A stretch of 64,000 bases of DNA. Origin: Aureimonas ureilytica. GTDB taxonomy: Bacteria; Pseudomonadota; Alphaproteobacteria; Rhizobiales; Rhizobiaceae. Both the position numbers and the translations under genes were made by a program. Numbering within the stretch: the first letter of the stretch is position 1; each line of letters opens with the position of its first letter. Below the pieces are notes generated by a model that saw only the letters and a program-made list of their open reading frames with translations, did no database searches and was not told the DNA's origin. Below are positions 59,057-64,000 of the stretch, piece by piece. The stretch lies in assembly GCF_001475935.1 (NCBI RefSeq), contig NZ_LDQA01000011.1, positions 1-64,000 on the forward strand, in the 5' to 3' direction.

Positions 59057-60802
59057 ATGAAAGATTTGTCCAACTATACGCTGACCTTCAGCGACGAGTT
59101 CGACAGCCGCAGCATCTCGCAGAACGGCGGCGGAACGACCTGGGCCGACATTCGCCCCGAATGGCGCCTCGACGCCAATTCCGACATCGGCTTCGGCCGC
59201 TCGTCCTTCGTGGACGCCGCGTCGGGCTACGACCCGTTCAAGGTGCAGGACGGTGTCCTCACCATCACCGCCGTCCCCGACCGCACGCCCTATGGAATGC
59301 CCGGAAGCTGGGAGTCCGGCCTTATCCACACGCGCGGCTCGTTCCAGCAGACCTATGGCTATTTCGAGATGCGGGCGGACTTCTCCGACGCCAAGGGCGC
59401 ATGGGACGCGTTCTGGCTCCTGCCGACGCAGCAGATCAACCAGGGCAAGAATGGCGGGTGGCAAGAGCTCGACATCGTCGAGCACTACGGCAACAACCCG
59501 AACGGCGTTTATCGCTGGCTCCATACGACCGACGCCCATGCCGACCCCAACGCCGATCTTCAGGTCTATAGCGAGCACGCCGGCATCACGACGGGCTTCC
59601 ACACCTACGGGATGGACTGGCAGGCCGACACGATCAGCTTCTATTTCGACGGGCAGCTCGTCGGCACCAAGGCGACCCCGAGCGATATGCACGGGCCGAT
59701 GTTCATTCTGGCCAATCTCGCCATGGAAAATGGCGCCGATCCTTCCGCCCCGCCCGCCGAAATGAAGATTGACTATATCCGCGCCTATGCCGAGAAGCCT
59801 GCGGTCGTCACCCCTCCACCCGAGCCGATCAACATCGTCACCGGCACGGCCGGAAACGATGTGTTGCGCGGCACGAGCGGCCGCGACCGGCTGATCGGCG
59901 GTGAGGGTTCCGATACGCTGATCGGCGGCAAGGGCGCCGACGAGCTGATCGGCGGCGATGGGCAGGACACGGCCTCCTATGCCAACGCGCAGCAGGGCGT
60001 TACCGCGAGCCTTCTCGACCCCTCCAAGAACACGGGCGACGCGGCGGGCGACACCTATTCCTCGATCGAACGCCTGATCGGCAGCGACTACAACGACACG
60101 CTGGAAGGCGATGCCGGCGACAATATCCTGAACGGTGGCAAAGGCGCCGACCGCATGATCGGCGGCGGGGGCAACGATGTCTATTTCGTCGAGAACACCT
60201 GGGACATCGTGATCGAGGCGGCCAAGGGCGGCAACGATCTCGTCATCACCACGACGAGTTACAAACTGGCTGCGGGCCAGGAAATCGAGACCCTGCGCAG
60301 CGCCGAAGGCTGCGGCAGTCTGACGCTGACCGGCAACGAGATCGACAATTACCTCTACGCCAACGAGAGCGCGACCAAGCTCTATGGCGGCCTCGGGCGT
60401 GACGTCCTGGTCGGCGGCAAGGGCGACGACTGGCTGTCCGGCGACGCGGGTTCGGATCGCCTGACGGGGGGCGCGGGCCGCGACACGTTCGTCTTCTCCA
60501 CCGCCCCGCGCGCGGGCGAATACGACGTGATCACCGATTTCAATGTGGTGGACGACCGGATCGCCCTCTCGCTCGCTGCCTTCGGCAAGGCCGGCGCCGC
60601 CCCCGGCGCGCTCGACCCGTCCGCCTTCTACGCCGGCACAGGCAACACGGCGCACGCGGCCTCAGACCGCATCATCTACAATTCCAAGACGGGCGATCTC
60701 TTCTACGACGCCGACGGCACCGGCCCCGACGCCGCCATTCGCTTCGCCCAAACACAGCCCGGCCTCGCCCTCACGGCAGACGACTTCTTTCTGATCGGTT
60801 GA
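59057..60802 (+). CDS. RTX protein with N-terminal GH16 glycanase domain
   Basis: 581 residues without a signal peptide. GH16 domain at about 5-250 with FSDEFDSRSI, GSWESGLIHTRGSFQQTYGYFEMRADF and the active site E137, D139, E142 in QELDIVEHYG. Calcium-binding nonapeptide repeats follow (about 265-480, for example GSDTLIGGKGADELIGGDGQ) and a C-terminal uncleaved type I secretion-like end. A second glycanase of the ExsH type, with the catalytic domain at the start instead of embedded. Its substrate may be the exopolysaccharide of the main locus. Confidence 0.88.
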   Translation: MKDLSNYTLTFSDEFDSRSISQNGGGTTWADIRPEWRLDANSDIGFGRSSFVDAASGYDPFKVQDGVLTITAVPDRTPYGMPGSWESGLIHTRGSFQQTYGYFEMRADFSDAKGAWDAFWLLPTQQINQGKNGGWQELDIVEHYGNNPNGVYRWLHTTDAHADPNADLQVYSEHAGITTGFHTYGMDWQADTISFYFDGQLVGTKATPSDMHGPMFILANLAMENGADPSAPPAEMKIDYIRAYAEKPAVVTPPPEPINIVTGTAGNDVLRGTSGRDRLIGGEGSDTLIGGKGADELIGGDGQDTASYANAQQGVTASLLDPSKNTGDAAGDTYSSIERLIGSDYNDTLEGDAGDNILNGGKGADRMIGGGGNDVYFVENTWDIVIEAAKGGNDLVITTTSYKLAAGQEIETLRSAEGCGSLTLTGNEIDNYLYANESATKLYGGLGRDVLVGGKGDDWLSGDAGSDRLTGGAGRDTFVFSTAPRAGEYDVITDFNVVDDRIALSLAAFGKAGAAPGALDPSAFYAGTGNTAHAASDRIIYNSKTGDLFYDADGTGPDAAIRFAQTQPGLALTADDFFLIG

Positions 60803-61028
60803 GGATCGTCCATCGGCCGAAGGCCCCAGAGAAATACCCAGATGTTCCTCTGGAGTCCCGTTGAGACCGATCGCGTTGTGTCGGAGTCGACTGAACGATC
60901 GCGACACCACAATCGCGCCCTTCCAGCTCATAACCAGACGCATTGGTTTTATGTTGCAGAGCAAAACATATAATGTTTATTTGATGGAGAATTGATCGAG
61001 TCCAACGTCTGACGGCCGGGTATTCCTT
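60803..61028. other. intergenic region before the acyltransferase gene
   Basis: About 225 bases, AT-richer in its second half (60945-61000, including ACATATAATGTTTATTTG). Probably the promoter of the acyltransferase gene; no specific motif identified. Confidence 0.4.
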
Positions 61029-62153
61029 ATGCAAGATGGAACGGCCGGAGCGGCATCGTTCAGCCGCGAACTTCATGGGGCGAGAGGCTTGTTTGCCTTT
61101 CTCGTCTTCGTGTTTCACGTCCAGAATTCAGGTCTGACGCCGCTTTTCGGTTCGGAACGTCTCTCGTCTTTGCTTGCGCCGCTGGTCTTCGGCGTCGAGC
61201 TCTTCTTCGCTTTGAGCGGCTTCGTCATTGTTGGCACGCTTGCGCGGGCCAGTCGTCCTTGGTTCTTCCTGATCGATCGGCTGACGCGCATCTACCCCGT
61301 GCTTTGGGTGGGCGTCCTGACCGTTGTGGCCCTATCGCTTCTCAGCGGCCGCGAAGCGCCGGCCACTTATCAAGGCTGGACGCTGGCTCTCTATACGCTC
61401 GCAAACATGGCGGGCCTGCCCAATCTCATCCCCGTCCCCCTGTTTCTGGCCCCGGCTTGGACGCTGAGCTACGAGCTCTGCTTCTACATCCTGGGTTCGA
61501 TCTATCTGGTGGCGCGTCGAAGATGGGCGATGAATCTGTTCCCACTTCTTCTGATTCTCAGCTTGCCCATCATCAACACGCATCCTCGGACGCTGTTTTT
61601 CTTGAGCGGAATTCTGGTGGCGACCAGATATGGGCGCTTCCTGCGCATTCCCGGGATCGAGAAGATGCCGGCTCTCGCGCTGCTCGTCTTCTTGTGGAGC
61701 TGGAGTTCCGCCTGGACCTACTACATCGAAGCTTTGGAGCCCCCCTCCTATACTTTGGTCGGTTGGATGGCCGATCCTCATATCCTCTACGTCGTCATAG
61801 CTTTCGCGTCCGCCACTTTGTTTCTGGATGCACTTGTACGAGGCGCGGGATGGGAGTCGACGTTTCTGCGCTCGCAGGTAGCGTTGTATTTCGGCACGAT
61901 CAGCTACAGCTTCTACCTCTGGCATCCCGTGGTCATGGCCCTCGTCAAGGCCGGTCTGAAGGGGACAGGACTCCTCGCCATCGCGGGAAGCTTATCGCAG
62001 CTTCTTCTCTTCGTGGCTGCCTTGCCACCGTCGATTGTTGTTTCCCATGCCAGCCAACGCTGGCTGGAGCGCGACCTGACGCATTTCATCCGCAGCAAAC
62101 TTCGCCGCGAGGCCAACGTATCCGCCCGTCCCGTTCGGGCAGAAGCCACCTAA
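61029..62153 (+). CDS. acyltransferase family 3 membrane protein
   Basis: 374 residues with about ten membrane segments. SRELHGARGLFAFLVFVFHVQNSG carries the conserved Arg/His motif, FGVELFFALSGFVIVG and WTLSYELCFYILG are family signatures. Like the ExoZ-like gene at 30698 it probably acylates a surface or secreted glycan. It is the last chromosomal gene before the tRNA-derived attachment site. Confidence 0.88.
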   Translation: MQDGTAGAASFSRELHGARGLFAFLVFVFHVQNSGLTPLFGSERLSSLLAPLVFGVELFFALSGFVIVGTLARASRPWFFLIDRLTRIYPVLWVGVLTVVALSLLSGREAPATYQGWTLALYTLANMAGLPNLIPVPLFLAPAWTLSYELCFYILGSIYLVARRRWAMNLFPLLLILSLPIINTHPRTLFFLSGILVATRYGRFLRIPGIEKMPALALLVFLWSWSSAWTYYIEALEPPSYTLVGWMADPHILYVVIAFASATLFLDALVRGAGWESTFLRSQVALYFGTISYSFYLWHPVVMALVKAGLKGTGLLAIAGSLSQLLLFVAALPPSIVVSHASQRWLERDLTHFIRSKLRREANVSARPVRAEAT

Positions 62154-62194: not shown

Positions 62195-62242
62195 TGGTGA
62201 TCCCAGTTGGATTCGAACCAACGACCCCCAGATTAGGAATCT
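62195..62242 (-). mobile_element. 3' fragment of tRNA-Arg(CCT), attachment site of an integrated island
   Basis: Read on the minus strand, 62242-62195 gives the last three bases of the 5' anticodon stem (AGA), the loop TTCCTAA (anticodon CCT), TCTGG, a 5-base variable loop, a perfect T-arm (GTTGG-TTCGAAT-CCAAC), the acceptor strand TGGGATC, A73 and CCA. Beyond 62242 the match fails (the stem reads CAAGA where CCAGA is needed) and no D-arm or 5' acceptor strand follows. This is the classic remnant left when an integrase uses a tRNA gene: the intact tRNA should lie at the far end of the island, past the right edge. Confidence 0.85.
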
Positions 62243-62250
62243 TGGATAAA

Positions 62251-62266
62251 CCATTGAGTTCAATGG
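62251..62266. repeat. perfect hairpin at island end
   Basis: CCATTGA-GT-TCAATGG is a 7-bp stem with a 2-base loop. It sits inside a wider inverted repeat, AACGACCCCCA (62220-62230, within the tRNA fragment) and TGGGGGTCGTT (62264-62274). May be part of the recombination site or a terminator-like element for the leftward genes. Confidence 0.6.
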
Positions 62267-62360
62267 GGGTCGTTTTCCTTCGTTAGGCATTCTGCTTGAG
62301 CCCGGTCCGATAGGGCCGTTGCATGTTCGATACCCCTAATAGAACAGCGGGCATTCTACC

Positions 62361-63503
62361 CTAGGAGTCTGTCTTTTTCGGAGGCTCAAATAATAGATTG
62401 AAAGTCCGAACATCTTTCGTGGAAACTATGTTGTTGAGTATTTTTTCCCAAGAACTGGTAATAGCGTTCAGATTCTCATCGCTATCTTCTTGGCTTGAAG
62501 GTGTGTCGCCCTGAATCGGCACGGTGGCAGCAGACGCCTCGTTCGCACTACGTTTCTCAACCTCTTTGAATGCGATTTCCCATTTCGAAGCATAGTCCTG
62601 ATAAGCTTTTGGAAGAGAAAATTCTTTCTTACTCAAACTAGGCAAGCAAGGGGTATCTATATTTTCGACATTCATAAAAGATGTTAGAAAATCTCTTATA
62701 TTTAAAGGCGTTGTGCCACCACCGCCTGTTAATTGTCGCTCCCGATCTCTAAGTTCACGGCGAAGAGCGTTCCGTTCTGTATTGATTGAAATTATCGGGT
62801 AAGGGCGCCCACCATGCACCCCCTTGAGTATTTCACGATTATGATAGGAGAACTTTATTGATGTCTTGTGCGATATCTCGGATTCCGCCAGCAACCACGC
62901 AAGCTCAATCGACACTACGCATTGATCTGAAGTGGCAAACCTAGTAAGTCGGAATCCTGTGTCTATACCTTTGCCTAAAAAGTCATAAGACGATGGAAGA
63001 CGATCTGCATCTTCTTCCTCTTCTTCAGAAGGTAGCTCTTCGTATCTTACGTCACCAATTTTTCTAGGCGAAACAGCTACAATAACATTGTCGGTTGGAA
63101 AAGTCGCGATCCAAGCTCCACCTTTGACATCGAGATACCGGCCGCGGGAATCTAAGGTCGAGCCGTACTCACTCAAAGCGGCAGTAAACGAGACGACACA
63201 CAGCGCTAAATGCTCCAAGCTTGTCACCGCACAACAAAAAACAAGCTCGTCACCAATAGTCTTCCAAACAGCTGGAATGATCCGCTCATCCGTTATGGCG
63301 ACACCCATACGAGGAGCATTATCCAAACAAAAGCGATGCAGAAGATCAGGGAACTCGGAATAAAAGTTTCTAATCTCCTCCACCCAAGCTTGCCGCATCG
63401 AGGTTTCGTCGCGGTTGCTACCTGGACCAGCTTTATAGGCGGTCGACCCAACAAGATCGACAGACATGAATAAACGCAACCTATAGTGAGGACATGTAAT
63501 CAC
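62361..63503 (-). CDS. class III nucleotide-cyclase-like protein with novel C-terminal region
   Basis: 380 residues, GTG start overlapping the stop of the upstream peptidase gene by one base. Residues 9-240 look like a class III cyclase catalytic domain: LFMSVDLVGST (metal Asp16), WKTIGDELVF (K81 and metal Asp85), GKGIDTGFRLTRFA (position of the N...R motif; Asp181 where Asn is usual, Arg185 kept) and HNREILKGVHGGRPYPI. An acidic run (EEEEED, 160-165) interrupts the domain. Residues 240-380 match nothing I recognise. Whether it makes cAMP, cGMP or a cyclic pyrimidine, as Pycsar cyclases do, cannot be told. Confidence 0.72.
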   Translation of the reverse strand: MITCPHYRLRLFMSVDLVGSTAYKAGPGSNRDETSMRQAWVEEIRNFYSEFPDLLHRFCLDNAPRMGVAITDERIIPAVWKTIGDELVFCCAVTSLEHLALCVVSFTAALSEYGSTLDSRGRYLDVKGGAWIATFPTDNVIVAVSPRKIGDVRYEELPSEEEEEDADRLPSSYDFLGKGIDTGFRLTRFATSDQCVVSIELAWLLAESEISHKTSIKFSYHNREILKGVHGGRPYPIISINTERNALRRELRDRERQLTGGGGTTPLNIRDFLTSFMNVENIDTPCLPSLSKKEFSLPKAYQDYASKWEIAFKEVEKRSANEASAATVPIQGDTPSSQEDSDENLNAITSSWEKILNNIVSTKDVRTFNLLFEPPKKTDS

Positions 63504-64000
63504 TATGCAAGCTCTAAGCTTCTAGCGCGAACCTCCGCAGCCTTCTCACTAACACCAAACATTAACGCAACAACTGATAAGTTTCCTTCGTAGATCCTAA
63601 CAGCATCCTGGAAAGCCTTTGCAGGCATCAAAAAAGAAGCAGCAAACCAATTCGCCTCCCATTCGCCACGCCGTTGCTGATCATCCGACTCATCTACCCA
63701 ACGGGTAGCGACCATTCTAGAGCCATGCCACCTATTAGCAACGAGTGGGTAATGCAGTAGGTAATGCCCTAGCTCGTGAGCAATAGTAAACCGGTCACGC
63801 TTGGCTGACGTCAGGCTAGTTAGATATATCGTAAACTTACCGGACGGCTCAACAGAAATGGACTCTGGAATACCAGTCAATTCATCCACGGGGGTGTAGA
63901 ACACAATGCGCCCACCGAGCTTCTCTATCAGAGGCTCAATGGCATCGCCCGGCTTAAAGCCCAGGTTACGAGCAGCGTTTTCCGCAAACTCCTGCACCGC
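63503..64000 (-). CDS. ImmA/IrrE-family metallopeptidase, possibly 5'-truncated
   Basis: At least 164 residues. Zinc motif HELGH in FTIAHELGHYLLHYPL, with the third ligand in GEWEANWFAASFLMP; typical ImmA/IrrE start RNLGFKPGDAIEPLIEKLGGRIVFY. Such peptidases cleave phage-type repressors or are partners of toxin-antitoxin and defence regulators. A GTG at 63997 could be the start, but the frame stays open to the window edge, so the gene may begin outside. It is directly upstream of, and overlaps, the cyclase-like gene. Confidence 0.85.
   Translation of the reverse strand, partial: AVQEFAENAARNLGFKPGDAIEPLIEKLGGRIVFYTPVDELTGIPESISVEPSGKFTIYLTSLTSAKRDRFTIAHELGHYLLHYPLVANRWHGSRMVATRWVDESDDQQRRGEWEANWFAASFLMPAKAFQDAVRIYEGNLSVVALMFGVSEKAAEVRARSLELA

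Follow-up and report, generated by a model that had tools for sequence, protein, structure and literature searches.

What does an ImmA/IrrE peptidase do in the same operon as a nucleotide-cyclase-like protein? The question is raised by the end of a 64,000-nucleotide stretch of Aureimonas ureilytica DNA (the window, C13:1-64000, G000), part of a 117,201-bp contig in a genome of 5.0 Mb. The two genes lie on the minus strand, the class III cyclase-like gene at 62361..63503 and the visible part of the ImmA/IrrE (M78) metallopeptidase gene at 63503..64000, where its open reading frame (ORF) runs open at the window edge. A third gene, PycTM, lies on the plus strand outside the window (C13:64259-64747, equal to L002:6260-6748). 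The three genes have an assigned fold or family and a defined layout, the prophage that carries them has defined bounds, and the protease and cyclase are widely conserved together. We consider it close to an even call that the locus is a prophage-borne, Pycsar-like abortive-infection module, composed of a CapP-like protease, a class III cyclase and a divergent PycTM.

The cyclase-like protein has 380 residues and a GTG start. No match was obtained in Pfam, NCBIfam or PADLOC at E<=1; for PycC, the PADLOC search was run without a known PycC as positive control and with a library in which a PycC model is unconfirmed. Two PADLOC accessions guessed as PycC models were discarded, being Old and PifA instead. 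Among PHROGs, the protein matches phrog_18024, of unknown function, with an E-value of 5.9e-36. The original prediction proposed a class III cyclase-like domain with Asp16, Lys81, Asp85 and Arg185, to be given up if structure prediction showed no cyclase fold. The predicted model does show a class III cyclase fold, with both metal-binding aspartates, over a core of approximately residues 4-252 (62748..63494, minus strand, from VIA model ranges and codon arithmetic), which includes D16, K81, D85, D174, D181 and R185. Known PycC structures were absent among the 50 matches listed by Foldseek or VIA, which excludes nothing. The four proposed residues are invariant in 13/13 aligned rows and nearly so over 54 distinct rows (D16 in 50/50 rows with a letter there, K81 in 52/53, D85 in 52/53, R185 in 53/53). 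An acidic insertion, left unexplained in the original prediction, is not peculiar to this protein, as E160, E163 and D167 are invariant in 13/13 relatives. Class III cyclases carry a transition-state Asn-x3-Arg pair. In this family the Asn position holds Asp181 in 53/53 rows and the Arg is kept, so the pair is incomplete; Rv1900c, an active cyclase according to its PDB title, likewise has no Asn at that position in the alignment.

The peptidase continues beyond the window to about C13:64069, giving a protein of 188 residues with an ATG at L002:6070, a start chosen by the analyst. It matches Pfam Peptidase_M78 with an E-value of 1.3e-16 and 61 bits against a cut-off of 22, and HExxH is present in 48/48 distinct paired proteases, in agreement with the zinc peptidase of ImmA/IrrE type that had been proposed. 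CapP is its best structural and profile match. The protease ends at CapP residue 183 of 278 (the PADLOC capP profile being matched to 150 of 242), and is therefore without the C-terminal sensor part of CapP. As had been claimed, the two genes overlap by one base, 63503 being common to both ORFs, and the setting is AT-rich, with 48.8% G+C in the last 2 kb of the window versus about 61-71% in most of the remainder.

A third partner such as a helix-turn-helix repressor had been suspected beyond base 64,000; the gene found there is a divergent PycTM instead. This GTG ORF of 162 residues begins 189 bp upstream of the protease start and matches PycTM in Pfam (36.6 bits, cut-off 27.2) and in PADLOC (4.2e-16). 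It is the sole PF18967 match in its own 5.0-Mb genome. PF18967 was sought in 41 genomes and in 9 more, one of which repeats G754, and was found in 7/41 and 2/9. Beside a cyclase of this family it stands in two places, the present locus and genome G112 (L078:4180-7195), where a distant family member of 584 residues has no protease and PycTM lies 40 bp downstream. Because PycTM is the only copy in the genome, has a second case in G112 and shares its divergent layout with rhizobial plasmids, it is taken as a partner in this locus rather than a bystander. Inverted repeats were not found in the divergent promoter region between protease and PycTM, and promoter and terminator counts at the locus are about those expected from shuffling.

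Other PycTM loci differ in their neighbours. On two annotated rhizobial plasmids, PycTM/DUF5706 and a FecR-domain gene diverge, and a class III cyclase gene comes after the latter (L112:1-4447, Sinorhizobium meliloti pSymB, CP140955, cyclase cyaK; L110:1-4447, Rhizobium sp. BG4 pRPC2); three of the 72 records with a PycTM relative were inspected. L114:1-4278 and L111 have a similar layout, with a FecR-like ORF recognised by eye. These are possible Pycsar-like loci with a different input protein. At L078, a 223-residue ORF without assigned family lies upstream of the cyclase relative, and relatives of its PycTM were not found on plasmids. A tblastn search of 12 loci for the PycTM studied here returned none.

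The original prediction also placed the genes on a tRNA-associated island. The mobile element is real, but ARAGORN found no whole tRNA gene in the 64-kb window, and the island is the end of a prophage. An intact tRNA-Arg(CCT) lies at C13:104299-104373, and its last 46 bases (C13:104299-104344) are repeated exactly at C13:62197-62242 (minus strand), forming an attachment repeat 119 bp from the cyclase stop. Beside the intact tRNA lies an integrase gene (C13:103014-104231, plus strand; PHROG phrog_1, 8.2e-9; Pfam match at 0.076, below cut-off), and terminase, portal, tape measure, tail fibre J and endolysin genes lie between the repeats. From the repeats, the integrase and these phage genes, the element is bounded at about 42.1 kb, with 62197..64000 inside the window and the remainder extending to C13:104344. 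Protease, cyclase and PycTM occupy the end of this prophage opposite the integrase. The same DNA (6,242/6,242 compared bases identical) is present in a 40,729-bp IMG/VR contig, which begins at the protease.

The original prediction would fall, among other things, if the gene pair were not conserved in other genomes. Genome contigs gave 12 loci in a protein search, which also returned 7 plasmid records and 3 phage records (six regions of these were examined) and 2 provirus contigs. Profile surveys gave hits in 15/385 genomes of the class, 22/398 of the phylum, 3/397 of the order and 7/247 of the family, in overlapping samples that each include the genome studied here. The protease lies directly upstream on the same strand in 44 of 54 loci and not in 9, L077 being unjudgeable with 26 bp upstream; in the genome surveys alone (L065-L098) the count is 25/33. 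Four further distinct loci all have the protease, giving 48/57, and on this count the pair is conserved. The loci were sampled by similarity to paired cyclases and are not a random sample of cyclases; L101 (the place of L066), L126 (L013) and L127 (L011) were dropped as duplicates. No protease remnants were detected by tblastn or profile near loci without the protease. The distance between the two genes is -95 to +23 in 43/44 loci, with the first start codon taken as ORF start. Trees of 41 protease-cyclase pairs agree (Spearman 0.66 versus a maximum of 0.36 in 2000 permutations; 17/38 splits shared), and the pair is inherited as a unit.

The pair is present in three phyla, including Leptospira plasmids, phage LE1 and a Mycolicibacterium plasmid. 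Its first gene is annotated as an immunity region protein in LE1; where annotation was seen, the two are mostly an ImmA/IrrE peptidase and a hypothetical protein. In 36/39 loci its G+C is below that of the flanks (mean difference 9.3 points), the pattern that imported genes would be expected to show. The pair is flanked by genes for phage structure, packaging or lysis in L099, L100 and L129, and L004 and L014 have integrase genes or fragments nearby; the candidate neighbours in L006 and L007 had no PHROG match. A whole tRNA gene beside the pair was rejected as a general rule, since tRNA or tmRNA genes occur in 8/42 loci and adjoin the pair in few. None of three listed genomes of the same genus has a near-identical protein. 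Mycolicibacterium chubuense pMYCCH.02 (L104:2617-5002) has another ImmA/IrrE gene upstream of the pair. In L014:7432-11121 the protease frame is open but the cyclase is split by an inserted element, whose transposase-like ORFs look IS66-like by eye. The open-licence literature yielded no description of the pair, and one may exist, as preprints and most subscription journals lie outside this coverage. Within it, no paper joins 'Pycsar' and 'ImmA IrrE', 'ImmA IrrE' and 'adenylate cyclase', or 'peptidase M78' and 'cyclase'.

In the predicted model, the C-terminal region of the cyclase has helical parts (residues 246-325) followed by mostly disordered sequence, with a predicted local distance difference test score (pLDDT) below 50 at 331-345 and 358-380. 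The tail proper, residues 299-380 (62364..62609, minus strand), has one helix before the mostly disordered part. In 42 loci with a protease-linked cyclase, the stretch after position 298 measures 37-154 residues, compared with 0-37 in 8/9 unlinked ones and 92 in L078; the Mann-Whitney p is 0.0025 in an earlier count that still contained the duplicate L101. L014, L070, L087, L096, L098 and L077 were excluded from trees or tail counts because they are broken or cut. There are too few phylogenetic contrasts for tail length to prove cleavage, and that argument was rejected. Two protease-linked cyclases carry an additional C-terminal domain: a fused NUDIX domain in L094:6135-7604 (PF00293, 1.3e-7), and an Xre-type helix-turn-helix in L005:8001-9368 (PF01381, 4e-13), possibly acquired by fusion to an adjacent antitoxin gene.

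On the Pycsar-like reading, by analogy with PycTM biology, the switched-on cyclase would make a cyclic nucleotide that opens PycTM. Open PycTM would damage the membrane of the infected cell, and the population hosting the prophage would thereby survive a rival phage. More tentatively, the sensor-less protease, which shares its message with the cyclase, may act as the switch and probably binds the cyclase. Once infection has been sensed, it might release or destroy the cyclase by cutting the flexible C-terminal tail, as could be suggested by the tail length in paired cyclases and its predicted disorder. Pairs without PycTM would have their effector elsewhere or use one of another kind.

Several results weigh against this reading. 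PycTM is not adjacent to the pair in 40/41 cases from the PF18967-scanned genomes, the exception being the present locus, and is therefore not a fixed part of the protease-cyclase module. An all-against-all BLASTP of neighbouring ORFs from 46 loci yielded no recurrent third family beside the pair; its largest cluster comprises three ORFs that are antisense or dubious. Among ten hand-picked neighbours scanned with PADLOC, those near L085 and L010 had weak TIR/PDC matches, one near L006 gave a type IIG restriction fragment, and seven gave nothing. Neither a helix-turn-helix repressor nor a sensor domain turned up to account for the sensing of infection. After phylogenetic correction the association of tail and protease is not significant, with one supported independent contrast and four on the best tree. 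Characterised PycC proteins select their base with F60/K104/F109 in clade D and F100/R142/Q144 in clade E, as given in an excerpt of PMC11224242, and these residues are absent from the cyclase in a comparison that covers D and E. By spacing from the metal Asp, Ser14 (50/50) stands at the Phe position, Lys81 at -4 and Ile/Leu/Val at +3, with residue 83 (-2) variable. As base-selecting residues vary between PycC clades, this mismatch lowers the Pycsar claim without closing it.

The protease-cyclase pair itself may prove to be a separate system. We regard it as a plausible though tentative proposal that the pair is an undescribed two-gene immune or stress module found across phyla, in which the protease would cut the cyclase tail to start or stop signalling, and PycTM would be one of several outputs, wired here by the prophage. 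A sensor-less protease made from the same message in three phyla would offer a concrete, testable switch for cyclic-mononucleotide immunity. The pair is easily found by sequence and is carried on prophages and plasmids, and may be an overlooked part of mobile-element immunity.

The protease could instead be the effector of a self-contained pair, the cyclase or its product activating ImmA to cut a host or phage protein, with PycTM as separate prophage cargo. The protease has no sensor part of its own, and most loci lack a constant third gene, yet the pair is inherited as a unit across phyla. However, we think this unlikely, given that 189 bp separate the genome's sole PycTM from the protease start, that L078 combines the same cyclase family with PycTM in the absence of the protease, and that we know of no cyclic-nucleotide pocket in the M78 fold. 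Prophages, phage LE1 and plasmids as carriers also agree with a toxin-antitoxin or prophage-maintenance module, in which an active cyclase would be harmful, the protease would restrain it, and the use would be maintenance, not defence. A harmful cyclase would fit the broken cyclases beside open protease frames in L014 (insertion), L070 and L098 (frame changes), and a long-tailed intact cyclase never occurs beside a broken protease, L078, which has no protease, being the exception. Such broken genes are uncommon and assembly errors may account for some of them, many pairs lie between chromosomal genes without maintenance genes, and PycTM is a known defence effector; a maintenance role thus seems distinctly improbable.

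Ordinary control of the CapH+CapP type, in which ImmA would cleave a repressor encoded elsewhere and raise cyclase-PycTM expression after DNA damage, appears very unlikely. CapP is the best structural match of the protease, and CapH+CapP controls neighbouring immune operons including Pycsar, with CapP cleaving the repressor there, according to an excerpt of PMC13373217. Nevertheless, no helix-turn-helix gene lies between the three genes, and in 48/57 loci the protease shares an operon with a cyclase, not a repressor. The protease is also without the C-terminal part of CapP and PprI, and the GAF-like part of PprI is required for activation by single-stranded DNA, as described in a portion of PMC10904395.

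Just outside the prophage end, window 59057-62153 holds a 581-residue ORF resembling a glycoside hydrolase of laminarinase type that has calcium-binding repeats, together with a 374-residue acyltransferase-like ORF, both by eye.

The locus can be compared with several known systems. In contrast to PprI/IrrE-DdrO of Deinococcus, it has no GAF-like domain and no DdrO-like partner. Rv1900c-type class III adenylyl cyclases differ from its cyclase, which has a conserved WKxxGDE, D181 for the usual Asn, a C-terminal extension and a protease partner. Panoptes concerns a different synthase and effector, as far as an excerpt of PMC12657218 describes it. With CapH+CapP the locus shares the protease fold and HExxH, but it has no CapH, its protease is shorter, and the protease neighbours are a cyclase and PycTM. 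The original prediction held that known Pycsar partners are membrane or TIR effectors and not ImmA/IrrE peptidases; a membrane effector is indeed present, whereas a peptidase of this type near Pycsar has a precedent in CapH+CapP (PMC13373217, in part). In Pycsar itself, PycTM is activated by the cyclic nucleotide that the cyclase makes, with damage to the membrane, according to an excerpt of PMC11224242. The present locus is alike in its class III cyclase fold bearing a pair of metal-binding Asp and its adjacent PycTM and, presumably, in its cyclic nucleotide and membrane damage; it is unlike in the ImmA/IrrE protease of the cyclase operon, the divergent effector, the relatives that mostly have no adjacent PycTM and, relative to clades D and E, in Ser14 for Phe and in Lys81 four residues ahead of the second metal Asp. 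Because the checked base-selecting residues differ from those clades and a cyclic nucleotide is only the presumed product of the cyclase, the locus is not filed as Pycsar, yet in the best reading it would work like Pycsar, with the protease as built-in control.
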